From IMG/VR virus record IMGVR_UViG_3300021406_000010, positions 102,489 through 166,488 of that record: a stretch of 64,000 bases of DNA. One strand, given 5' to 3'. Under the pieces are notes generated by a model, which had not been told where the DNA came from, searched no databases, and was given only the letters and a program-made list of their open reading frames with translations. Within the stretch, counting starts at the first letter, position 1. Each line of letters starts with the position of its first letter. The translations under genes and the position numbers were made by a program. Shown in pieces: positions 9,495 to 52,423 of the stretch. Origin of the DNA: a virus.

Positions 9495-12400
9495 CTAGAA
9501 GTCGAGCGGATAGGTGCCGAAGATGCGGACGGTGTCTCCTGCCGTCGCGTCGTAGACGTGCACGACCCCGGTGCTGAGCATCTCGCAGACCAGCGGGATG
9601 CCGAGGAACGGCGACCCGGCGTTCTGCACGCAGCCTAGCGGCTGGTTGGAGGCCGGCCAGTAGGCGGCCGGCAGCGCCACGGTTATGTTCGAGTTATTCG
9701 CGACTCCGGAGGGGACGTTGAGGATTCCGGAGACCATGACCGTGTTGTCGGACCTGTACTTGTACTTGAAGGTCCCCGTCCAGCTGTTCGCGAGGGAGAA
9801 CGAGTGGGGCACCTCGGGCACCGCCGGGATGACGCCCGGCTGGAAGGCGGTGACCGGCCCGGTGTACCCGGCCGCGTAGGCGTTGCCGCCCGGGTCGGTG
9901 CCCGCCTGCGGCGACAGGGCGCACTCCAGGACTGAGCTGGACACGTAGGTGATCTTCACCTGGCCGTCGGCGCCGGATCCTCCGATTGGCTGGGAGCTGG
10001 ACCCGGAAGTGCCGGTCACCGTGACGGAGGCCGAGCTCGCTCCCCCGGCGAAGTACCCGTACTGGGTGAGGTCCGGCTCGGAGGTGGACGGGCCGGTCAT
10101 CAGCGACTTGGCCGCGCCGGACTTCAGGGCCGCCCCCAGGCCGGGCGGGTTGATGACCTTGGTCGCGCCCTCGGTGATGCCCGCCTGGTACTGGCCGTGC
10201 TTGTCGCCTGAGCCGAGCGAGGAAATGGTCCCGGGGAACGACGTCCGGTTCGACCACCCGAAGGTGATCGTCATGCCGCTGCCGTACCAGGAGTGCTGGT
10301 TGGTGATCTTCACCGACGCGGACGTGATGGTCACCCCGGACAGGTCCGACTGGACCGATGAGGGCAGCAGCCAGAACCCGAACTGGTTGCCGGCCGGAGC
10401 GCCGCTCGACGCCCCCTGGTAGACGGAGCCGCCGGCGTTCCGCTGGGCCCCGCCGATGTCGGTGCCGTAGTACGACGCTGAGCTGCTGGCGTTGTAGGTC
10501 CTGCTGAACGGCGAGGTAGTAGTGGACTGCCCGGAGCCGCCGCCGCCGCCGCCAGGGCCGCTGCCGCTGGCCCCGCTTGCCGCGCTGCCGCCGCTCGCCC
10601 CGCCTGCGCCGCCGCCGCCCGCGCCCGCAGCCCCGCCAGGGCCGTTGTAGACGCCGTTGCCGCCCGCCCCGGAGGGGCCCCCGGAGCCGCCGCCGGAGCC
10701 GCCGTCCGCGTGGCCGCCGGTAACTCCCATGCCGCTGCCGCCGTCGTGGTGGATGGTGTTGGCCGACCCGGTGCCCCCGGCCCCGCCCGTCCCCTGGGCG
10801 GGTGAGGCGTCTCCCCCGTTGGCGTAGACCCCGGTCCCGTCGAAGAAGGTGTCGCCGCCGCCCTGCCCGTCGGAGTTGCCGGTGTACGCGCCGTTGCCGC
10901 CGTTGCCGACGGTGTAGCTGTAGGTGGTGGCCCCGGTCGGGTCGAGGGGGTAGCTCGGCTCGCAGGCGTACTCGCCGGCTCCCCCGCCGTCCTGGCCGGT
11001 AGTGCCGTTTCCGTGGTTGGCCCCGGCGGCGGCGCCCCAGCACTCGATTTTCCCGGACGGGATGCCGGGCGGGGGCGTGAAGGAGTAGGTTCCGGCGGCG
11101 GGCTGGGTGATGGTCGTGGTGGTGGTCGTGTAGGCGTAGAGCACGCCGCCGACGGTGTCGAAGGTGATGTCGGTCTCCGTCATCGTCCCGCCGGAGATGG
11201 CGGTCGCGGCGATGGTGGAGGCGGAGATGGACCCGTCCTGGAAGCTTCCGCTGGCGATGGAGCAGGAGTTGACGTTCAGCCCGGAGATGCCGCCCTGCGC
11301 GACGAAGAGGCCGGCGGGGTAGGGGTTCCCCTGGCCGTCGGCGCCGGCCGCAGCCGACCACGACCCGATGAGGTTCCCCAGTGCCGGGGTGCCGGAGTAG
11401 ACGAGGATCTCGCCGGAGGTGCCGAAGGCGATGAACTGGCCGCCCTCGATGGTGGTGCCGTCGACCACGCCCGCCAGGACGATGCCCGCCGCGATCTGCT
11501 CGGCGGTGATGGTCCCGGCGGCGATCTGCGCGGCCGTGATGGTTCCCGCCGCGATCTGCGCGGCCGTGATGGTATTGGCGGCGATGAGCGCGGCGGTCAC
11601 CGACCCGGCCGCGATGGACTGGGTGCCGAACTGGAACGGCACCCAGTTGGAGCCGTTCCAGGTGGTCAGGGCGAAGCCCTGGTTGCCGTTGAACCACAGG
11701 TCGCCGGCGGCCGGGGACGAGGGCTGGGAGAACCCGACGCTGGTGGTGACGCCGCCGATGTCGGAGGCGGTGAAGTCGACCTGCCCGGGGGTGATGCCCG
11801 CGTTGGCGGCCAGCTGCAGGGCGGTGAGGCTGCCCGCCGCGATGGCCCGGGAGCCGAACTGCAGGAGCCGCCACCCGCCCCCGTCCCATACCGACACCGA
11901 GTTGCCCTGGGCCGGGTTGATCCAGATGTCGCCCAGGACCGGGGCCGGCGGCTGCGACGTCCCGGTGATCACGGAGGTGCCCCCGAGGTCGGAAGCGGTG
12001 ACGGACAGCTGGCCGGCGGTGATCCCGGCGGCCGGGGCGAGCTGCGCGCCGGTGATGGTGCCGGGTGCTATCTTGGCCGCCGTGACGGCCCGGTCGGCGA
12101 TGGCGTTAGTGCCGACCTGCAGCGGCACCCACCGGGACCCGGACCAGCTTGTGAGGGCGTTGCCCTGCGCGGCGTTCACCCACAGGTCCCCGGGCGCCGG
12201 GGCTGCGGGCGCGGCGGCGGAGGCCGTCACGGCGGGCGCGGCGGCGGCGGGGAGGTCTGCCGGGGAGGCAGCGGCGAACGCGGCGAACGTCCACGTGCCC
12301 AGGTCCTGGGTGATGATCCACATCTCGCCCGGGGCCGGGGGCGGCGCCTTGCTGCGCTGCATCAGCATCGTCACGGCGACCTGGGTGCCCTGCCGGTCGA

Positions 12401-12509
12401 CGGTGATGGCGGTGGCCCCGTCGGCGGATATCGACCGGACGGTGACCAGCTTGGCGGACAGGCCGACGCTGTGGGTGGCCGGGTTGAGCGGCTGGCGGGG
12501 AGCGGCCAT
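9495..12509 (-). CDS. Gly-rich repeat tail fibre/baseplate protein
   Basis: A 1004-aa virion protein starting MAAPRQPLNPATHSVG. Residues ~95-330 contain three diverged ~75-aa repeats, each with GD(L/I)W(V/I/F)N..QGN....W.G..W..LQ and a following AI....(V/L)TA..IA segment, plus a run of AAGTITAAQI copies. Residues ~480-680 form a very Gly-rich block (ECWGAAAGANHG onward), as in glycine-rich adhesin domains of phage fibre tips. The C-terminus has beta-sandwich-like strands (WTGTFKYKYRSDNTVMVSG). A receptor-binding or short-fibre role is inferred. The ATG overlaps the hub gene's stop (TGATG), so the two are coupled. Confidence 0.7.
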   Translation of the reverse strand: MAAPRQPLNPATHSVGLSAKLVTVRSISADGATAITVDRQGTQVAVTMLMQRSKAPPPAPGEMWIITQDLGTWTFAAFAAASPADLPAAAAPAVTASAAAPAAPAPGDLWVNAAQGNALTSWSGSRWVPLQVGTNAIADRAVTAAKIAPGTITGAQLAPAAGITAGQLSVTASDLGGTSVITGTSQPPAPVLGDIWINPAQGNSVSVWDGGGWRLLQFGSRAIAAGSLTALQLAANAGITPGQVDFTASDIGGVTTSVGFSQPSSPAAGDLWFNGNQGFALTTWNGSNWVPFQFGTQSIAAGSVTAALIAANTITAAQIAAGTITAAQIAAGTITAEQIAAGIVLAGVVDGTTIEGGQFIAFGTSGEILVYSGTPALGNLIGSWSAAAGADGQGNPYPAGLFVAQGGISGLNVNSCSIASGSFQDGSISASTIAATAISGGTMTETDITFDTVGGVLYAYTTTTTTITQPAAGTYSFTPPPGIPSGKIECWGAAAGANHGNGTTGQDGGGAGEYACEPSYPLDPTGATTYSYTVGNGGNGAYTGNSDGQGGGDTFFDGTGVYANGGDASPAQGTGGAGGTGSANTIHHDGGSGMGVTGGHADGGSGGGSGGPSGAGGNGVYNGPGGAAGAGGGGAGGASGGSAASGASGSGPGGGGGGSGQSTTTSPFSRTYNASSSASYYGTDIGGAQRNAGGSVYQGASSGAPAGNQFGFWLLPSSVQSDLSGVTITSASVKITNQHSWYGSGMTITFGWSNRTSFPGTISSLGSGDKHGQYQAGITEGATKVINPPGLGAALKSGAAKSLMTGPSTSEPDLTQYGYFAGGASSASVTVTGTSGSSSQPIGGSGADGQVKITYVSSSVLECALSPQAGTDPGGNAYAAGYTGPVTAFQPGVIPAVPEVPHSFSLANSWTGTFKYKYRSDNTVMVSGILNVPSGVANNSNITVALPAAYWPASNQPLGCVQNAGSPFLGIPLVCEMLSTGVVHVYDATAGDTVRIFGTYPLDF

Positions 12510-15124
12510 CAGGGGCCGGCCGTCCCTGTCCCGGGCAGCGGCAGGTTGGTGCCCGCCGTGAGGCCCCCCGCTACCGGCAGGCCGATGAGCTGGCCGCCGG
12601 AGTTGTTGCCGCTGCCGGGCAGCCGGGCGGGGGCGGCGATGTTCACCTGGGTGGTGAAGGACCCGCCGGGGCCGGTCTGCCAGGTGTGGGTGACGGTGGT
12701 GACGTAGGCCTGGAAGCCGTAGGCGGGGACCTGCAGCAGCATGCCGGGCCACAGCTCCGGCATGAAGGTGAGGGCGACGTCGGAGTTGTACTGGTAGGCC
12801 CAGCTCCTCATGAACAGGAACAGGGCGGAGAAGAACTCGCCCGACGGGCCGATGACCCCCGGCATCTCCTCCAGGTCTGGGCGGGCGCCGAACCGGCCGT
12901 AGACGTAGCTGATGAACTTCTGCGCCTGGGCGGCGGTCGGCTCCAGGCCGAACAGGGCGTACATGATGGCGGGGATGTCGATGGTCGCGATGCCGGTGGT
13001 GGACAGGGCGTAGATGACGTCGAGGGGCAGCGTCTGGCCGGTGGCGGACAGGGTGATCCCGGACGCGGTGCCGCTGCCCAGGTCGACCTGCTGGGCGGGC
13101 GGCGCGACCACGTACTGGTGGGTGACCAGGTTGGTGTCGTCCCACGTGACGCTGAAGTCGATCAGCTCGATCGGCTCGACCTGCATGATGGCGGCGGTGC
13201 CCCAGATCCCGTAGTAGTCGGGGAACCACGCGATCAGGTCCCCGTTGGGGGCCGAGCAGTAGCTCCGCATGCAGGACCCGAGCAGGTTGCGGATGTAGGG
13301 CAGCAGCGGCTGGTCGTTGAGCAGGACGCGCGGCCCGGTGAACACGGCGGAAATGGCGGCCGACTCGGAGTCGAACGTCGGGAACCAGGGACTGGGGCCG
13401 AACAGCTTGTCGAACTGGTCGTTCGGGTTGTACCACGGCTGGGTGGAGGACGGGGATACTTGCAGCGCCTGCCCGCTGGCGGTCGCGGAGACCGCGCCGC
13501 CGGAGGTGAGGGCGCCGCCCGTCGGCACTGACTTGAACGCGGCGACGGTGCCGTTGTAGGCCGAGTAGTCGAACCCCGGGGCCAGCCCGGCGCACGTCCA
13601 GTAGGAGGCGGCGTTCCCGACGACCCCGGCGAATGTCCCGGTGTGGTGGGCGCCGACCGTGCTGCTGCCGGTCCCGGTGCTGATCTCGACGTGGCTGGAC
13701 GCGCCGGGGCCGCCGAGGAACATCAGCGCGCCGGGGATGTTCATCCCCGCCTGGGCGGACACGATCTGCCCTGACGACTGGCACCAGGCGCTCTGCTCGG
13801 CGGCTGTGCGAGGGCACCCGCCGAGGCTGCCGAGGGCGTGGAAGACGCACCACTGGACGAACGAGGAGCAGTCGAGCTGGGTGGGGACCGCCACGTTGGG
13901 GGCGGAGTCGCCGCCCAGCTGGTAGGGGATGTGCGGGTCGGACTGGACCAGCCCGAGGGCGGTGCCGAGCAGCTGGGTGCAGCTGGCCTTGCCCGCCTTG
14001 GCGTTGGAGGCGAGCGGGGCGAAGCCGGGGGAGTTGCCGAGCGAGCTGGCTCCCTGGGCATTGGACAGGACGCCGACGATCTGGGTGGCCATGTTCAGCC
14101 ACTGGTCGTAGTACGCCTGCCCCTGGGCGGCGGTGTTGAACGCCACCTGGACCATGTTCGCGACCACGCCGGGGTCGATCGACGCCCGGTTGCCGATCTT
14201 CAGCTCCACCGAGAAGAACTTCTGCGTGGCGTAGGTGACGTTGGTGACCTGCGCCACCGTCCCCCACCCGGCGGCCGGCCGCTGCTGGAACAGGCCGTAG
14301 GCCCCGTCAATGTTGGGGGTCGGGATGTTGGTGAGGGTCGACTCCCCCATGGCGGTCTCGATGCCGATGACCGCGTCCCGGGTGGTGCCGCCCATCTGCA
14401 GCGCCGTGTTGTAGATCAGCACCGCGAGGGAGGCCTGGGTGGCGTCGAGGCTGAACCCGGCGTACGTCCCGGCCTTCAGCGCCCCCGACGGGACGGTCCC
14501 GCCGCCGCCCCCGGGCAGCGAGCCGCCAACCGACCCGCCAACCGTCCCGGCCGCCCCGAGGGTGGCGTAGAACTGCTGGGCGAGGGCGTCGGCCGCCGCC
14601 GTGTCCGCCTTGACCGCCTGGGCGATCTTGTACGCCCACGCGGTCCAGCCCTGCGGGATCCCGGCGATGTGGACCTTCTCGGCCGGCCAGCCGGTGACGT
14701 TCTGCAGGATGGCCAGCACCGCCGCCGTGACGCCCCCGTCGTCGGGGTTCTTGGCGCTCGCCATCGCCTGGGCGACCATGTTCTGCGAGGCGGCGAGGCC
14801 GGGGTCCCAGAACCAGTACTGCAGCCTCTTCAGCGAGCACGACGCGGTCAGCTGCACCGACGTGGGCCAGGCGGTGACCAGCGGGACCGAGTTCAGGTAG
14901 CCGGTGAAGACCCTGAGCCAGGTGATCCGCTTCATCATGACGATGATCCGGTCGTTGGGAACGAATATCCCGGTGTACTTCCGGAACGGGTTCTGCAGGG
15001 TGAAGGCGAAGGTCGACACCCCGTCGGAGCGGCGCACCATGGTCCCCTGGGTGACGTCGTCGCTGATGTCGATGATCCCGTTGGCCTGGGTGAGGATGTA
15101 GATCTTGCAGGCTGGCGAATACAT
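12509..15124 (-). CDS. baseplate hub with SLT-like and NlpC/P60 cell-wall hydrolase domains
   Basis: An 871-aa protein starting MYSPACKIYILTQ. Residues ~1-100 resemble hub or gp27-like domains (FVPNDRIIVMMKRITWLRVF). Residues ~235-330 look like a lysozyme/SLT-type muramidase: a Glu in AVIGIETAMGES and the YGLFQQRPAAGWGT motif typical of actinophage tail lysozymes. Residues ~395-520 are an NlpC/P60 peptidase with catalytic Cys in LDCSSFVQWC and His in GASSHVEI. The C-terminal ~300 residues return to hub-like beta structure. It would pierce and locally digest peptidoglycan during DNA injection. The ATG overlaps the stop of the 32-aa TM peptide (TGATG). Confidence 0.8.
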   Translation of the reverse strand: MYSPACKIYILTQANGIIDISDDVTQGTMVRRSDGVSTFAFTLQNPFRKYTGIFVPNDRIIVMMKRITWLRVFTGYLNSVPLVTAWPTSVQLTASCSLKRLQYWFWDPGLAASQNMVAQAMASAKNPDDGGVTAAVLAILQNVTGWPAEKVHIAGIPQGWTAWAYKIAQAVKADTAAADALAQQFYATLGAAGTVGGSVGGSLPGGGGGTVPSGALKAGTYAGFSLDATQASLAVLIYNTALQMGGTTRDAVIGIETAMGESTLTNIPTPNIDGAYGLFQQRPAAGWGTVAQVTNVTYATQKFFSVELKIGNRASIDPGVVANMVQVAFNTAAQGQAYYDQWLNMATQIVGVLSNAQGASSLGNSPGFAPLASNAKAGKASCTQLLGTALGLVQSDPHIPYQLGGDSAPNVAVPTQLDCSSFVQWCVFHALGSLGGCPRTAAEQSAWCQSSGQIVSAQAGMNIPGALMFLGGPGASSHVEISTGTGSSTVGAHHTGTFAGVVGNAASYWTCAGLAPGFDYSAYNGTVAAFKSVPTGGALTSGGAVSATASGQALQVSPSSTQPWYNPNDQFDKLFGPSPWFPTFDSESAAISAVFTGPRVLLNDQPLLPYIRNLLGSCMRSYCSAPNGDLIAWFPDYYGIWGTAAIMQVEPIELIDFSVTWDDTNLVTHQYVVAPPAQQVDLGSGTASGITLSATGQTLPLDVIYALSTTGIATIDIPAIMYALFGLEPTAAQAQKFISYVYGRFGARPDLEEMPGVIGPSGEFFSALFLFMRSWAYQYNSDVALTFMPELWPGMLLQVPAYGFQAYVTTVTHTWQTGPGGSFTTQVNIAAPARLPGSGNNSGGQLIGLPVAGGLTAGTNLPLPGTGTAGP

Positions 15125-15222
15125 CAGGACCGCCACGGGCCGTCCCCTCCGCCGTGCCGCCTGATCCACACGACGATCAGCATCGCCGCCAGCACCCCCA
15201 GGACCAGCAGGAGCGCGCTCAC
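15124..15222 (-). CDS. 32-aa single-pass membrane peptide
   Basis: A short reading frame MSALLLVLGVLAAMLIVVW followed by IRRHGGGDGPWRS: one strongly hydrophobic helix and a basic C-terminal tail. Its GTG overlaps the upstream stop (GTGA) and its TGA overlaps the hub ATG (TGATG). Coupling on both sides supports real translation. It could help insert the hub into membranes or be a small holin-like peptide; function unknown. Confidence 0.6.
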   Translation of the reverse strand: MSALLLVLGVLAAMLIVVWIRRHGGGDGPWRS

Positions 15223-15851
15223 GGGCCGGTCCCGGTCAGGTTCGGGGGCGGTCCCTGCCCGGGGGCGTAGGGGATCGTGACGGGCGACGACGGCGCCACG
15301 GTGCCGTAGTTGAACGGCACCTGGGTCCCGGACAGCTGGTCGCCGAACGGGTAGAAGTACTGGATCGCCGGGTCGGACGCGAACGCGCTCCACTTGTTGA
15401 CGACGGAGCTGGCGGCCACCACGGCGGGCTGGTGGGGCGACAGCCCGGCCTCGAAGATGAACTGCGGGGTGAACATCATCATCCCGGTGTGCGCTCCCCA
15501 CTCGTAGCCGACGAGGGGGATGCCGTGCTCGGTGAAGCCCCGCGACGGCACGGTGACCACCATCAGCGGGAAAGACGTCCAGGTGATGTTGGGGTCCAGC
15601 ACCAGCTGGGCGAAGGACGCCATCCAGGCGTTGAAGTCGAGCCGCTCGTCCCAGTCCTTCAGCAGCACCTGGACGGAGAACTGCTGGCGGGCGCTCTTGT
15701 GCGGGTAGTAGGCCCGGGTGGTGCGGCCCTGGTCCTCGGCGGAGATCATCTGCACGCCGTGGGACAGGTCCCCGGCGCGCACCTGGTAGGCGTGGGTGAC
15801 GCCCTGGGCGTCGGGGTAGCTGAACGTGGCGTTCAGGCCCTGCCGCGTCAT
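15219..15851 (-). CDS. tail/baseplate structural protein
   Basis: A 210-aa protein (MTRQGLNATFSYPDAQGVTH) with many aromatic residues and predicted beta strands (RQQFSVQVLLKDWDERLDF, GMMMFTPQFIFEAG). It is encoded between a 76-aa gene and the hub gene in a chain of overlapping stop/start codons. Position suggests a tail-tip or hub-adjacent protein; no specific family is recognised. Confidence 0.65.
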   Translation of the reverse strand: MTRQGLNATFSYPDAQGVTHAYQVRAGDLSHGVQMISAEDQGRTTRAYYPHKSARQQFSVQVLLKDWDERLDFNAWMASFAQLVLDPNITWTSFPLMVVTVPSRGFTEHGIPLVGYEWGAHTGMMMFTPQFIFEAGLSPHQPAVVAASSVVNKWSAFASDPAIQYFYPFGDQLSGTQVPFNYGTVAPSSPVTIPYAPGQGPPPNLTGTGP

Positions 15852-40690: not shown

Positions 40691-40746
40691 TATGCTGGCA
40701 CGCGATGCACCAGGGCAAGACACCAGCGACGAGAGGGCATGCATGA
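40691..40746 (+). promoter_or_regulatory. -10 box with leader mini-ORF MHQGKTPATRGHA
   Basis: TATGCT (40691-40696) is followed 8 nt later by a 13-codon reading frame (40705-40746) whose TGA overlaps the ATG of the 272-aa gene (ATGA). A leader peptide coupled to the main gene is inferred. Confidence 0.4.
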
Positions 40747-41561
40747 AGTACCTGCAGATCGAGCGCACCGAGCCGGATAGCGGCGGGCCGAAGCGCACCC
40801 CGCGTGAGGAGTTCCGCCCCCTGGTCCGGGCCGAGCACCTGGAGGCGCTGAACATCGGCGCCGAGCCGGAGCTCTACCCGGACACGTCCCCCTCGCAGGG
40901 CTTTCCGTGGGAGAGCGACCCTTCCATGTGCACCTGGTTCATCCAGACGCAGGTCGTGAAGGGCCTCCTGGAGCCGTTCGCGGTACTGGACGTCAAGGGC
41001 GACGGCGTATTCGCCTACCCGTACTCCCACAGGTACCTCCAGCTGGGCGACAAGCCGGATGACGGCGACCTGGCGCCTGGCAACGTGGACGCCAAGATGG
41101 CCGCGTTCATGCGGAAGTACTTCAAGGGCGCCGACCGGCCGCAGAACCCCGGCGGCACCTGCATCATGTCCGCGATCATGGCCGGGGACGCCCACTACCT
41201 GGGGACCGCCGAGGACCCGGGGGAGTACTTCAAGACCCCGTTCAAGGACCGCCCGCTGCGGATCCGCATCGGCCCTGGCGATGGGGCGCTGGAGGACCTC
41301 TCCCGCCTCATCGCCTACCTGGAGCAGGCGAAGCCCACCGATGAGGGGTACGGGCTGCACGGCGAGTGGCGCGAGGTCTGGGGCTTCCCCATCCTCGGCG
41401 AGGACGCGGACGGCAAGGCCAGCGAGGCCTACGAGCAGCTCCGGGAGGTGCAGGAGAAGCACCCGTGGGTGCACCCGTGGCTCTTCCAGGGCGTCCGGAG
41501 CGTTCCTGAGATCGTCGAGGACGTGGCGCTCGCCCTCGTCCCGCAGGACACCAGCGCGTAA
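40743..41561 (+). CDS. hypothetical protein
   Basis: A 272-aa protein (MKYLQIERTEPDSGGPKRTP), soluble and mixed alpha/beta. It contains PSMCTWFIQTQVVKGLLEPF and YFKGADRPQNPGGTCIMSAI, and a C-terminal HPWVHPWLFQGVRS...VEDVALALVPQ. No recognised family. Starts at the ATG overlapping a leader mini-ORF, with SD-like GAGAGGG. It is on the plus strand among minus-strand genes and is followed by a strong terminator. Confidence 0.7.
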   Translation: MKYLQIERTEPDSGGPKRTPREEFRPLVRAEHLEALNIGAEPELYPDTSPSQGFPWESDPSMCTWFIQTQVVKGLLEPFAVLDVKGDGVFAYPYSHRYLQLGDKPDDGDLAPGNVDAKMAAFMRKYFKGADRPQNPGGTCIMSAIMAGDAHYLGTAEDPGEYFKTPFKDRPLRIRIGPGDGALEDLSRLIAYLEQAKPTDEGYGLHGEWREVWGFPILGEDADGKASEAYEQLREVQEKHPWVHPWLFQGVRSVPEIVEDVALALVPQDTSA

Positions 41562-43052: not shown

Positions 43053-43436
43053 TTACATGCAGGGGAGCACCGGCTCGTCGCCCAGCACCAGGACCCGCCC
43101 GCCCGACGGCTGGCGGGCGGCCATCAGGTCATCCCACTCGGAAGAGCGCATCCTGCGCCGTGGCCGTTCCTCCTGGCACGGCGGCTCCCCGGACCGCAGT
43201 CCCGCCATGAACCGCACGAGCTCCATGCCCTCCCGGTTGCCGCGCCGCTCATTGCACCACTTGTGCGCGGGGCGCAGGTTCTCCGGTGAGTCTGGCCCGC
43301 CGCGCGCCAGGGGGATGACGTGGTCGCGGGTGGCCCGCATCCGGTCGCGCTGCCCGTCCCGCCTGAAGTCAATTGGCCGCAGGCACAGCCAGCAGTCATC
43401 GCCGTAGAGCTCGCGAAGCTGCCGGATGCTGATCAT
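43053..43436 (-). CDS. HNH nuclease
   Basis: A 127-aa protein with a compact HNH fold: CWLCLRPIDFRRDG, TRDHVIPLARGGPDSPENLR and AHKWCNERRGNREG (zinc Cys pairs, catalytic DH, N and H). It may be a free-standing homing nuclease or a DNA-processing nuclease. The ATG is 6 nt after TAAACT in a copy of the AGCAAGGAAAGCT promoter element. Confidence 0.85.
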   Translation of the reverse strand: MISIRQLRELYGDDCWLCLRPIDFRRDGQRDRMRATRDHVIPLARGGPDSPENLRPAHKWCNERRGNREGMELVRFMAGLRSGEPPCQEERPRRRMRSSEWDDLMAARQPSGGRVLVLGDEPVLPCM

Positions 43437-44027: not shown

Positions 44028-44338
44028 CGGCCAGACCTCCCCAGCACCGTGCAGTCCCGGTGGGTGATCATGACTGCGTCCTCCTCGCGCTCCCCGCCCG
44101 TCACGTCGCAGTGATCGTGCCGGGTCATCTTCCATGACCCTGGCGGGCCGTCCGGGGAGACGATGACGTTCACCCCGAACAGGAACTCCCATGATGAGTA
44201 GCGGCGGGCGGGAACGTGGGTGCTGGCTGCGGCCAGGGCGTCGCAGACGTCCTGCGCGCACGTCAGCACCTTATGGCAGGGGGTGCCATAGTGCTCTCGC
44301 AGCAGCGCGAGGACCGGCTCCAGCTCCTGGGGCGTCAT
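44024..44338 (-). CDS. hypothetical protein
   Basis: A 104-aa protein (MTPQELEPVLALLREHYGTP) with RRYSSWEFLFGVNVIVSPDG and a C-terminal HDHCDV...THRDCTVLGRSG Cys/His region. Coupled by overlap to both neighbours. Unassigned. Confidence 0.55.
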   Translation of the reverse strand: MTPQELEPVLALLREHYGTPCHKVLTCAQDVCDALAAASTHVPARRYSSWEFLFGVNVIVSPDGPPGSWKMTRHDHCDVTGGEREEDAVMITHRDCTVLGRSGR

Positions 44339-44649
44339 GCCCGCAGCCTCCCGTCAGCCAGAGCCCGATCCATGTCCCGGATGAGCGCCAGGCGCGTGAC
44401 GAACGGCCGAAACCGCAGCGTGATGTCCAGCACGTTTGCCTTCGCGGTGACCTGCAGCACGTTAGTCCTTGTCTTCCCGCTGGGGATGGAGCGGATCCAC
44501 CCGTGGCCCAGGATGCGGTTGAACTTGACCAGCACCTCGCGGTCCTTCTCGGTGACCACGATGATGATCGCGGCTCCCTTGAAGTGGTAGCTGCCCTTGG
44601 CGTCGAAGTACCCGGTCGCCCACCACAGGTCCTGGTCGGTGATCGTCAT
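44335..44649 (-). CDS. LAGLIDADG-like small protein
   Basis: A 104-aa protein with one LAGLIDADG-type motif (LWWATGYFDAKGSYHFKG), then IIIVVTEKDREVLVKFNRI and GHGWIRSIPSG, the usual helix-strand order of a single LAGLIDADG half. Such single-motif proteins act as homodimeric homing endonucleases or lose activity. The acidic residue is Asp (YFDAKG). Confidence 0.7.
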   Translation of the reverse strand: MTITDQDLWWATGYFDAKGSYHFKGAAIIIVVTEKDREVLVKFNRILGHGWIRSIPSGKTRTNVLQVTAKANVLDITLRFRPFVTRLALIRDMDRALADGRLRA

Positions 44650-46830: not shown

Positions 46831-47988
46831 ATGCCCGGAATGGACCCGAAGCTCCTGCAGGCAAGCCTCGACGCGGTGGCCGGGCGCGAGCGGGAGCTGG
46901 CCGAGTTCTTCTACGCCCGCCTGTTCCTCCTCGCCGTCAACCGCGACCAGCCTGAGGTCCAGGCCATGTTCCCGCTGGTGATGACCGCCCAGCGGGACCG
47001 CCTGCTGGGTGCCCTGGTGCAGGTCGTGCAGCTCGCCGCCAGCGGCGACACGGCCGCGCTGACCGCCCTGCTGGAGGACACGGGCCGCAGCCACCGGATG
47101 ATCGCCGCCCTGCGTCCCGAGCACTTCCCGCTGGTCGGCGAGGCCCTGCTCGCCACCCTCGCCGAGTACGCCGGGAAGGCCTGGACGGCCGAGGTGGCCG
47201 CCACCTGGAACGAGGCCTACGCCCTGGTGTCCTCCGTGATGGTCAAGGCGATGGAGGACGACGGGTCTCCCCGGTGGTGGGACGCGACGGTGATCTCCTC
47301 GCGGATGCTGTCGCGGGACGTCCTGGGCCTCCTGGTGCACCTCGGCCAGCCGATGGCGTGGGAGCCGGGCCAGTCGGTGAAGGCCGAGATCGACGGGCCG
47401 CCCGCGCCGTCCGTCCGCCGCTGGCTCACCCCCGTCAACGCCCCGCCCGGCGCGGGCGACCGGCTGGAGTTCCACGTCCGGGTCATCCCCTGGGGGGTGT
47501 TCGGTCCCGCCCTGGCAAGGGCGGCCAGGCAGGGCGCGGCGCTGAGGCTCAGCGCCCCCGGCGGGACGCTGCGGCTGGACGGGGAGTCATCCCGGCCGGT
47601 GCTCATGATCGCCGGGTCTACCGGGCTGTCGCCGATGCTGGCGATGCTGGAGGCCCTCGCCCGCCGCCCGGACCCGCCGGCGACGTCGCTGTACTTCGGG
47701 GCGCGCGACCCCGAGGGGCTTTACGCGGCCCCCGAGCTGGATGGCATGACCGCCTCGCGCCCGTGGCTGTCCGTCACGTACGCGGTGGAGGCCCCGGCGG
47801 GAAGCACCCCCGGGTACCAGGGGGCGCACGGCACCGTCACGAGCGCGGCAATGCGGGACGGCCGCGACTGGAGCGGCCATGACGTGTACGCGTGCGGGCC
47901 GCCGACCATGGTCCGGGCGGCCCTGGACCGCCTGGCCAGGGCAGGCGTCCCGCCGGGCCAGGTGCACGCCGAGGAGTTCCTGTCCTAG
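46831..47988 (+). CDS. flavohemoglobin-type globin/FAD/NAD oxidoreductase
   Basis: A 385-aa protein. The globin domain (~1-135) has the B-helix EFFYARLF with the distal Tyr, CD-corner MFPLVM, proximal His in TGRSHRMIAALRPEHF and VGEALLATL. The FAD-binding beta barrel (~150-250) has RRWLTPVN where classical Hmp has RxYS, so FAD binding is atypical. The NAD domain (~250-385) has MIAGSTGLSPMLAMLEAL, a YFGARDPEGLY strand and DVYACGPPTMV with the C-terminal HAEEF. The family detoxifies nitric oxide (NO dioxygenase) or senses oxidants; this subtype resembles actinobacterial forms. It lies 19 nt upstream of a DivIVA-like gene. Start may be 46831 or 46840. Confidence 0.85.
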   Translation: MPGMDPKLLQASLDAVAGRERELAEFFYARLFLLAVNRDQPEVQAMFPLVMTAQRDRLLGALVQVVQLAASGDTAALTALLEDTGRSHRMIAALRPEHFPLVGEALLATLAEYAGKAWTAEVAATWNEAYALVSSVMVKAMEDDGSPRWWDATVISSRMLSRDVLGLLVHLGQPMAWEPGQSVKAEIDGPPAPSVRRWLTPVNAPPGAGDRLEFHVRVIPWGVFGPALARAARQGAALRLSAPGGTLRLDGESSRPVLMIAGSTGLSPMLAMLEALARRPDPPATSLYFGARDPEGLYAAPELDGMTASRPWLSVTYAVEAPAGSTPGYQGAHGTVTSAAMRDGRDWSGHDVYACGPPTMVRAALDRLARAGVPPGQVHAEEFLS

Positions 47989-48007
47989 CCACGAGAGGGA
48001 GGGGTCA

Positions 48008-48538
48008 ATGGCACCCGCCAGCACGGGCCCGCTGCGGCGCAGGCTCACCGCCGACGACATCAGGAACTACGATTTCCCCGCGCGGTTCGGGCGGCCGGAC
48101 ATGGACGACGTGCGCATTTTCCGGGAGCGCGTGGCCGCCGAGGTGGAGCAGCTCGCCCTGGAGGCCCGTGACGCGCGCCGGTTCCCGGCCGCCGAGGTGG
48201 CGGCCCGGGAGGCCACCCGGATCCTGGCGGGCGCCCGGCGCACCGGCGAGGGCGTCATCGCGACTGCCCAGGCGCAGGCCCGGGACGTGACCCTCACGGC
48301 CCGGGACCGGGCCGAGAGGCTGGTCGCCGACGGCCACGCCCTCCGCGACGGGATCCTGGACCAGGCGCGCGGCCAGGCGGAGGCGGTCGTCGCCGAGGCG
48401 GCGGCCCGCTTCCCGGTCGATGCCCAGGCGCAGGTCGCCTACCTGCAGTCATTCGCGGAGCTGCTGACCGGGCAACTGCGCAGCGCCATCGAGGTGCTGG
48501 AGGCCCGGCGCCCGGGGATGCCGCCCGTCACTTCCTGA
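48008..48538 (+). CDS. DivIVA-like coiled-coil protein
   Basis: A 176-aa protein. The N-terminus LTADDIRNYDFPARFGRPDM then DDVRIFRERVAAEVEQL follows the DivIVA lipid-binding domain ('lTp.di....F.....gYd..eV..Fl..v..e'). The rest is Ala/Arg-rich coiled coil (GVIATAQAQARDVTLTARDR). DivIVA/Wag31 organises polar growth in actinomycetes, so a phage copy could redirect cell-pole growth. SD GAGGGAGGGG. Cotranscribed with the flavohemoglobin. Confidence 0.75.
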   Translation: MAPASTGPLRRRLTADDIRNYDFPARFGRPDMDDVRIFRERVAAEVEQLALEARDARRFPAAEVAAREATRILAGARRTGEGVIATAQAQARDVTLTARDRAERLVADGHALRDGILDQARGQAEAVVAEAAARFPVDAQAQVAYLQSFAELLTGQLRSAIEVLEARRPGMPPVTS

Positions 48539-50623: not shown

Positions 50624-50812
50624 TCACGACCTCTCGATCCGCATGCCGATGACGGTGGCCCCGGCCTCCACGACCCTGATGTCCTGCCGGACCGAGGCGG
50701 GACGGTGACGCCCGAGCCAGTCCTCCAGCTCGTCAGCAGCCTCGTGGAGCCCCGGAGAAAACTCGCCGTCCCTGGCCGCGCGCCACTGGGCGATAAGGTC
50801 TTCGAGTGTCAT
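50624..50812 (-). CDS. small hypothetical protein
   Basis: A 62-aa protein (MTLEDLIAQWRAARDGEFSP; GLHEAADELEDWLGRHRP). SD CAGGAGG lies within the last codons of the HNH gene, and ATG overlaps its stop (TGATG). An internal copy of the conserved promoter element lies 30 nt upstream. Unassigned. Confidence 0.6.
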   Translation of the reverse strand: MTLEDLIAQWRAARDGEFSPGLHEAADELEDWLGRHRPASVRQDIRVVEAGATVIGMRIERS

Positions 50813-51150
50813 CAGGCCTCCTGGATGTTAGTCATGCGGCCAGCATAGCAAGGAAGCCTGTAATCCGGTAGCGGGCCAGGCCCGGCCGACGCTGCCGACC
50901 CGGGGACGCCGAGGTCGCGCTCCTCGTTGCACCGCGCGTGCGCCAGCCGCATGTTCTCGTCGTCGTCGGTGCCGCCCATAATGACGGGAACGACGTGGTC
51001 CCGGGAGGCGCGCACCGGGTCGGTGCTACTGGTGATCGTGAAGTCGATCAGGAGCCCGCACCACCAGCAGCCATCGCCGTCCCGCTCGCGCAGGCGGCGA
51101 AACTGGGCGGCTACCCGCTTGGGCTTCCGGTGAGGCCGCTTCCTGCTCAC
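50812..51150 (-). CDS. HNH nuclease
   Basis: A 112-aa protein (GTG, MSRKRPHRKPKRVAAQF). The HNH motif is clear: CWWCGLLIDFTITS, ASRDHVVPVIMGGTDDDENM and AHARCNEERDLG. The last seven residues (MTNIQEA) are encoded downstream of a promoter element, so an internal transcript starts within this gene. Similar in layout to the HNH at 43053 but divergent in sequence. Confidence 0.8.
   Translation of the reverse strand: MSRKRPHRKPKRVAAQFRRLRERDGDGCWWCGLLIDFTITSSTDPVRASRDHVVPVIMGGTDDDENMRLAHARCNEERDLGVPGSAASAGPGPLPDYRLPCYAGRMTNIQEA
50842..50858 (-). promoter_or_regulatory. internal conserved promoter element
   Basis: AGCATAGCAAGGAAGCC gives minus-strand -10 TATGCT, 6 nt before the in-frame ATG at 50835 inside the HNH gene. 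It would drive the downstream part of the operon (50812 and below). Confidence 0.5.
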
Positions 51151-51380
51151 GTCCCCGCCAGGCCCCACTCGGTCACGGGGCGCAGGTCCAGGAACTTATG
51201 GCTGCCGTCGTCCAGCCGTAGCAGGCAGGTCCACCAGTCGGCGTGGGCCTTGACGAGGGTGCCCTCCCAGGTGCCGTTGTCGGCCCAGGAGGGGATGCCC
51301 CGGTGCCTCACCACGAGGCGGACCCGCTGGCCCTCGAGGGGCCTCAGCTCCTCCGGCCGTGGCCAGCCGGGGTAGCTCAT
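51147..51380 (-). CDS. small hypothetical protein
   Basis: A 77-aa protein (MSYPGWPRPEELRPLEGQRV) with a beta-barrel look (VRLVVRHRGIPSWADNGTWE; LLRLDDGSHKFLDLRP), comparable with small SH3/KOW-like folds. Overlaps neighbours by stop/start. Confidence 0.55.
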   Translation of the reverse strand: MSYPGWPRPEELRPLEGQRVRLVVRHRGIPSWADNGTWEGTLVKAHADWWTCLLRLDDGSHKFLDLRPVTEWGLAGT

Positions 51381-51871: not shown

Positions 51872-52423
51872 ATGGGAAAGGACACCGCCAGGGCGGAGGC
51901 CCTCTGGGAGCTGCAGGACGCGTACGAGCGGCTGGTCCTCGCCCGCGCCCACGTCGTCCACGTGCTGCGCGAGGTCCGCTCGGTGGTGACGGAGCGCAGG
52001 AACTACGATGACGGGCGGCAGGTCCCCCGAGTCTCCCGCTACGCCAGCCCGGAGGACGTCATCGCCGGGCTGCACCGCCTCAGCCGCCTGGCCCGGCTGG
52101 TGCAGCCCGGCAGGCAGAACCGGGTGAAGCCCGAGGTGCTCATGCGGCGGTTCGAGTCGGCGGTCGCGGCGGTCGGTGAGCTGGAGGAGCGGATCGGGGA
52201 GATGGAGCGGGAACTGCAGGAGCCGCAGTCCCAGGCGGCAGGGTACTACCAGCTGAAGCCAGTGCTGCCCGCCGGGCAGAACGCCGCCTTGCCGCGCGGG
52301 ACGTGCCCTGAGTGCGGGCGGGAAGTCGGCATCCGGCAGGACGGGACGTTCCGGTTCCACCGGGGCAGGCACAGGGGCACCTGTCCTGGTTCGCACCAGG
52401 AAGCGCCGGGACCGGTGGCCTAG
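51872..52423 (+). CDS. coiled-coil protein with C-terminal zinc finger
   Basis: A 183-aa protein (MGKDTARAEALWELQDAYER). Long helices (LVLARAHVVHVLREVRSVVT; VAAVGELEERIGEMERELQE) are followed by a CPECGREVGIRQDG...RFHRGRHRGTC ribbon. Leaderless start from the bidirectional element. May bind nucleic acid. Confidence 0.65.
   Translation: MGKDTARAEALWELQDAYERLVLARAHVVHVLREVRSVVTERRNYDDGRQVPRVSRYASPEDVIAGLHRLSRLARLVQPGRQNRVKPEVLMRRFESAVAAVGELEERIGEMERELQEPQSQAAGYYQLKPVLPAGQNAALPRGTCPECGREVGIRQDGTFRFHRGRHRGTCPGSHQEAPGPVA

Follow-up and report, generated by a model that had tools for sequence, protein, structure and literature searches.

In several large actinobacterial phages of soil type, a flavohemoglobin gene, the product of which belongs to the nitric oxide (NO)-destroying heme enzymes, is adjacent to a gene for a DivIVA-like coiled-coil protein. 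Both phage genes are orthologous to neighboring genes of an actinobacterial operon and have been inherited together; the heme pocket of the flavohemoglobin is conserved, and the phage copies are monophyletic. We give somewhat better than even chances to the interpretation that the pair is a heme-flavin cassette which originated from this host operon, spread among unrelated large actinophages, and provides an NO dioxygenase or a related enzyme docked by its DivIVA partner. The phage cassette is real and recurrent, and apparently unreported; the host operon is real and conserved, and apparently undescribed.

The window analyzed here covers the final 64 kb of the IMG/VR record G000 (166,488 bases). 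On its plus strand, the flavohemoglobin gene (46831..47988; 385 aa) is followed, after a 19-nt spacer (47989..48007), by the gene for the DivIVA-like protein (48008..48538; 176 aa, ATG start). The spacer carries a strong Shine-Dalgarno sequence, gagggagggg, for the second gene; coding composition is present in both genes, and a scan for promoters and terminators found neither. Predicted ORFs and Pfam matches confirm what the first-pass annotation described, namely, a 385-aa globin/FAD/NAD ORF with a DivIVA-like ORF 19 nt downstream, on the strand opposite to the surrounding small genes. The nearby minus-strand block contains two lone plus-strand genes (40692-41561 and 51872-52423), both without an informative PHROG match. 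An HNH endonuclease gene (43053-43436, minus strand; PHROG match) also lies in this vicinity, as do a similar HNH-like gene (50812-51168, minus strand) and a LAGLIDADG-like gene (44335-44649, minus strand), the latter two recognized by eye. Homing-type endonucleases flank the pair on both sides and might aid its mobility.

G000 is a 166-kb myovirus that encodes a portal protein (phrog_2833, E = 2.6e-136), tail sheath, baseplate wedge and head-maturation protease. Inspection of translations also revealed RecA- and DnaE-like genes, the relatives of the latter coming from actinophages and others. A second contig, G004 (IMGVR_UViG_3300021170_000018; 64,206 bases), contains both genes, without a single base difference, between the same flanks; the pair is thus no artefact of assembly. 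Because G004 extends from position 147046 of G000 through its end and into its beginning, joining both ends, G000 represents an almost full-length genome that is circular or circularly permuted. Chimeric assembly and bacterial contamination were rejected given the shared flanks, the joined ends and the portal, sheath, baseplate and protease genes. The two contigs are 97-99.7% identical, except for positions 11693-15334 of G000, a recombining or fast-evolving segment with 85-92% identity and small gaps.

Four more phage contigs with the pair emerged from profile searches of IMG/VR, namely, L142 (148,913 bases), L143 (13,439 bases), L144 (150,822 bases) and L178 (190,216 bases); in each of them, a DivIVA-like gene follows the flavohemoglobin gene. 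In every phage sequence read, this is the only DivIVA-like gene.

The 385-aa protein contains, in this order and in one chain, the Globin (PF00042; E = 1.7e-10; residues 51-137, 46981..47241), FAD_binding_6 (PF00970; E = 1.7e-4; residues 152-247, 47284..47571) and NAD_binding_1 (PF00175; E = 6e-16; residues 259-364, 47605..47922) domains, all above the curated Pfam cut-offs; this is the domain architecture of a flavohemoglobin. The GSTGLSP and CGPP motifs of the NAD(P)-binding domain are intact. The structural comparison agrees: the protein matches the solved flavohemoglobins 3ozu and 1cqx over its full length, and the top Foldseek match of its AlphaFold model (pLDDT 85) is the Escherichia coli Hmp (1gvh, E = 6e-23), with whole-chain fold matches to the flavohemoglobins of E. 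coli, Cupriavidus (1cqx) and yeast (4g1v).

We tabulated the key residues in the five phages and in 51 host relatives, 25 of which are paired with a DivIVA gene and 26 unpaired. TyrB10 (Y28, 46912-46914), GlnE7 (Q54) and HisF8 (H88, 47092-47094) are conserved in all five phages and in 25/25 paired hosts, and LeuE11 (L58) in all five phages and 24 of the 25. The first-pass annotation singled out loss of the heme-binding histidine in close relatives as grounds for doubt; the histidine is present in every phage and in all 51 host relatives. The same annotation was correct in that Y28 and H88 are in place, but its description of the catalytic residues does not extend to the second catalytic tyrosine, TyrG5, which is replaced by F99 (47125-47127), nor to GluH23, replaced by M141. 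The TyrG5 position is occupied by Phe also in L143 and L144, by Trp in L178, and by Tyr in L142 and every paired host. At the GluH23 position, all 51 host relatives have Ala or Ser, whereas the glutamate is present in betaproteobacterial relatives. With Phe or Trp in place of TyrG5 in four of the five phages and GluH23 missing across the actinobacterial group, the classical HisF8-TyrG5-GluH23 proximal triad seen in E. coli Hmp is only partly present, and we therefore do not file the window protein as an Hmp-type (type I) enzyme. Its score against the NCBIfam Hmp equivalog, NF009805, is 112.7 bits, against a cut-off of 432.

The RxYS motif of type I enzymes is replaced by R197-W-L-T (47419-47430), as was recognized at first pass, where RRWLT was taken to indicate an atypical FAD site. 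We abandoned this sequence as a distinguishing oddity after the host count: Leu replaces the Tyr of RxYS also in phage L178 and in 8 of the 51 host relatives (3/25 paired, 5/26 unpaired), so that RRWLT is not exceptional. The Leu may weaken FAD binding. The thioredoxin-reductase-like FAD motif of type II flavohemoglobins, D(x)8GxxP, is absent from the window protein; phages L142 and L144 have it, as do several hosts. The window protein shares with Hmp/FHP (E. coli 1gvh, Cupriavidus 1cqx/3ozu) the order of the three domains, the fold, the four conserved heme-pocket residues and the NAD motifs, at about 21-22% identity in the structural alignment, but differs in the TyrG5, GluH23 and RxYS replacements, in being phage-borne and DivIVA-paired, and in falling far under the Hmp equivalog cut-off. 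With the type II enzymes (MtbFHb, Rv0385), it has in common the nature of an actinomycete two-domain flavohemoglobin and an altered FAD site (PMC8883573), but not D(x)8GxxP.

The 176-aa partner scores 25.4 bits against the Pfam DivIVA family (PF05103), just below the 28-bit gathering cut-off, and hence falls short of Pfam membership. Its DivIVA-like homology is evident from the comparison with a profile of the host pair DivIVAs built with the phage sequence left out (53 bits, E = 7e-15), as well as from a match to NCBIfam Wag31 (1.7e-7); for reference, the paired homologue of host L026 scores 54.8 bits against the Pfam family. The N-terminal DivIVA domain is degenerate (LTADDIRNYDFPARFGRPDMDDV), having lost the RG(Y/F) of the membrane loop, and the C-terminal motif (VAYLQSFAELLTGQLRSAIEVL) is conserved, retaining the AYLrtF...qLR..leaL pattern of the host paired proteins. 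The predicted model is weak (pTM 0.38), and a search with the window protein alone retrieved only G004. The phage protein shares with the polar-growth protein DivIVA/Wag31 an N-terminal DivIVA domain and a coiled coil, but is a shorter, separate, flavohemoglobin-linked paralogue. A profile of the five phage sequences scores the host pair DivIVAs (119, 116 and 88 bits) above canonical DivIVAs (79, 70 and 62 bits), which suggests that both genes of the cassette share a history.

A search of 395 genomes (class of a Nakamurella relative) yielded 116 genomes with a flavohemoglobin match at E <= 1e-40, and the neighborhoods of 90 strong loci were read. A same-strand DivIVA-domain gene comes immediately after the flavohemoglobin gene at 24 of these 90 sampled loci; the two genes mostly share a 4-base stop/start overlap, suggestive of translational coupling. 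The paired flavohemoglobins form essentially one clade that includes the phage gene; pairing requires 4 label changes on the tree, compared with about 22 in shuffles. The exceptions are L036, an unpaired long-branch relative, and L119 from Micromonospora, where the downstream gene is DivIVA-like by eye (RRGYERAAVD) without a Pfam match. The flavohemoglobin copy of an Embleya megaplasmid is paired as well. A chance neighborhood was considered and rejected, pairing being confined to a single clade despite 4-5 DivIVA-domain matches per genome. The phylogeny called for at first pass thus finds the same adjacent pair in many actinobacterial genomes, with the phage gene inside their clade, which lends strong support to the original suggestion of a cargo segment taken from a host.

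The host arrangement usually includes a third gene. A truncated hemoglobin (PF01152; E = 1e-16 to 2e-20 in four examples scanned) is encoded directly upstream of the flavohemoglobin at 20/24 paired loci and at none of the 66 unpaired ones. At the remaining four paired loci, the upstream gene codes for a single-domain globin in L121 and L136 (extended versions of L028 and L026), for a second flavohemoglobin in L134 (extended from L092) and for an NO synthase oxygenase in L137 (extended from L116; PF02898, E = 5e-122). In genome G099, the order from position 4628 of L137 onward is NO synthase oxygenase, flavohemoglobin, DivIVA; the same order, with a DivIVA-like gene at the end, is seen on a plasmid of Micromonospora zamorensis (L119, 2748-5763). 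At these two loci, the flavohemoglobin could be the missing reductase of the NO synthase or its detoxifier. A search of open-access papers found no description of the truncated-hemoglobin/flavohemoglobin/DivIVA arrangement.

In the phages, the orthologous flavohemoglobin and DivIVA genes keep the order and strand of the host operon. In the window, 19 nt separate the two genes where hosts usually have a 4-nt overlap, and the DivIVA is shortened. Unlike the operon, the cassette has no truncated hemoglobin (Bac_globin), which was found neither anywhere in G000 nor in the other phage sequences read. The phage pair is therefore a reduced version of the operon, given that most, though not all, paired host loci carry the truncated hemoglobin. 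All five phage flavohemoglobins fall into a single clade (98/97), the sister of which consists of the genes of Actinoallomurus purpureus (L026) and G359 (L028); phage monophyly and these sister genes fit a single capture from an Actinoallomurus-type host followed by exchange between phages. Only 7 of the 184 proteins of G000, including the two of the pair, are common to G399, and 6 to G401, whereas G399 and G401 have 70 proteins in common, so that the cassette is present in two or more lineages that are for the most part unrelated. G399 and G400, which correspond to L142 and L143, respectively, encode portal and major head proteins. In G400 (L163, 1598-11162), the pair is located inside the head module, between the portal and major head protein genes, unlike in G399 and G401; thus, the cassette changes position.

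Searches for other phage flavohemoglobins gave no full-length homologues among 50,697 records of isolated phages, and none were found in PHROGs or in the searched literature; in BFVD, there was only a weak giant-virus globin match and no phage flavohemoglobin. Other phage contigs encode distant globin-domain proteins (L145, L146 and L181; IMG/VR 3300049926_000039, 3300049434_000017 and 3300022906_000037, respectively), with the globin of L145 and L146 following an N-terminal CPHCxGTGN motif. These proteins are a different phage globin family.

Most likely, the cassette supplies a heme-flavin NO dioxygenase, or a related O2/NO redox enzyme, docked by the DivIVA-like partner, which would be a plausible function. 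The involvement of NO/O2 chemistry is suggested by the activity of the family, as far as it is presented in PMC3820574 and PMC6950321, by the part that flavohemoglobin plays in nitrogen-oxide cycling by bacteria, as outlined in PMC4766573, and by the identity of the host partners, a truncated hemoglobin or an NO synthase, which are conserved and consistent with this idea. Under this scenario, a phage ancestor would have taken the pair from an actinobacterial truncated-hemoglobin/flavohemoglobin/DivIVA operon, and the cassette would have later spread between unrelated large actinophages. During infection, electrons would pass from NAD(P)H via FAD to the heme of the flavohemoglobin, which would oxidize NO with O2 to nitrate or catalyze O2/NO redox reactions closely akin to this one. 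Its DivIVA-like partner would oligomerize as a coiled coil and could dock the enzyme, or raise its local concentration, close to the respiratory chain at the membrane or the cell pole. Host respiration and the radical or metal enzymes on which the phage depends would thereby be shielded from NO of host or soil-denitrifier origin. The truncated hemoglobin would have been dropped by the phage, with its own globin domain or that of the host used instead. The NO dioxygenase activity of hemoglobins in vivo is said in PMC2323109 to be limited by reduction, so a scaffold holding the reductase beside the globins would make sense in the host operon.

The absence of GluH23 and the relaxed TyrG5 would also be compatible with a type II-like heme-flavin redox enzyme that is involved in disulfide/mycothione or other electron transfer, instead of NO dioxygenation, and keeps the redox state of the infected cell. 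Type II flavohemoglobins are exclusive to actinomycetes, where some of them are reported to act as disulfide reductases and D-lactate oxidases and not as NO dioxygenases (PMC8883573), and the reductase half of the window protein closely matches stand-alone ferredoxin-type reductases. We nevertheless consider this rather unlikely because the distal TyrB10, GlnE7 and LeuE11, together with HisF8, are fully conserved, the operon partners are those of NO/O2 chemistry, and the window protein lacks D(x)8GxxP, the motif proposed for such an activity.

The DivIVA-like protein itself might be the active component, disturbing the polar growth machinery of the host, with the flavohemoglobin being secondary. 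DivIVA organizes polar growth in Actinomycetota, according to PMC12585849, and the phage copy retains the DivIVA-like N-terminus and coiled coil. However, the N-terminal loop is degenerate, the two genes stay together in hosts and phages, and the phage copies are closest to the small DivIVA paralogue of the operon and not to the canonical polar-growth protein; the early proposal that the phage protein redirects host tip growth thus finds no support, and we view this possibility as improbable. Still slimmer are the chances that the pair is neutral cargo, a captured host segment without a function in the phage, even though the window phage forms a long branch with relaxed TyrG5 and RxYS positions and the pair is oriented against its flanking genes in a moron-like manner: both ORFs are intact in five phages that have diverged to 42-60% identity, the heme residues and NAD motifs are invariant, and the DNA is identical in G004.

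Flavohemoglobin, DivIVA and phage metabolic cargo are each already known, and their combination is not a new kind of system. Phage metabolic genes have mostly been known for photosynthesis, nucleotides and sulfur; the flavohemoglobin-DivIVA cassette suggests that some phages manage NO or O2 chemistry in the infected cell. The host-side operon is as new as the phage side, and its link between globins, NO synthase and a DivIVA-type scaffold suggests that actinobacterial NO chemistry takes place at a defined cell site. More tentatively, and with the odds against it, one can envisage an undescribed actinobacterial module for NO/O2 handling, with globins (a truncated hemoglobin or NO synthase, plus the flavohemoglobin) held at such a site by a DivIVA-type scaffold; unrelated large phages would have passed a minimal two-gene form of it among themselves to control NO in the infected cell, perhaps to counter a host response based on NO. 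If a heme-flavin NO/O2 enzyme is indeed common to unrelated actinophages, nitric oxide would be a factor in the conflict between soil phages and their hosts.
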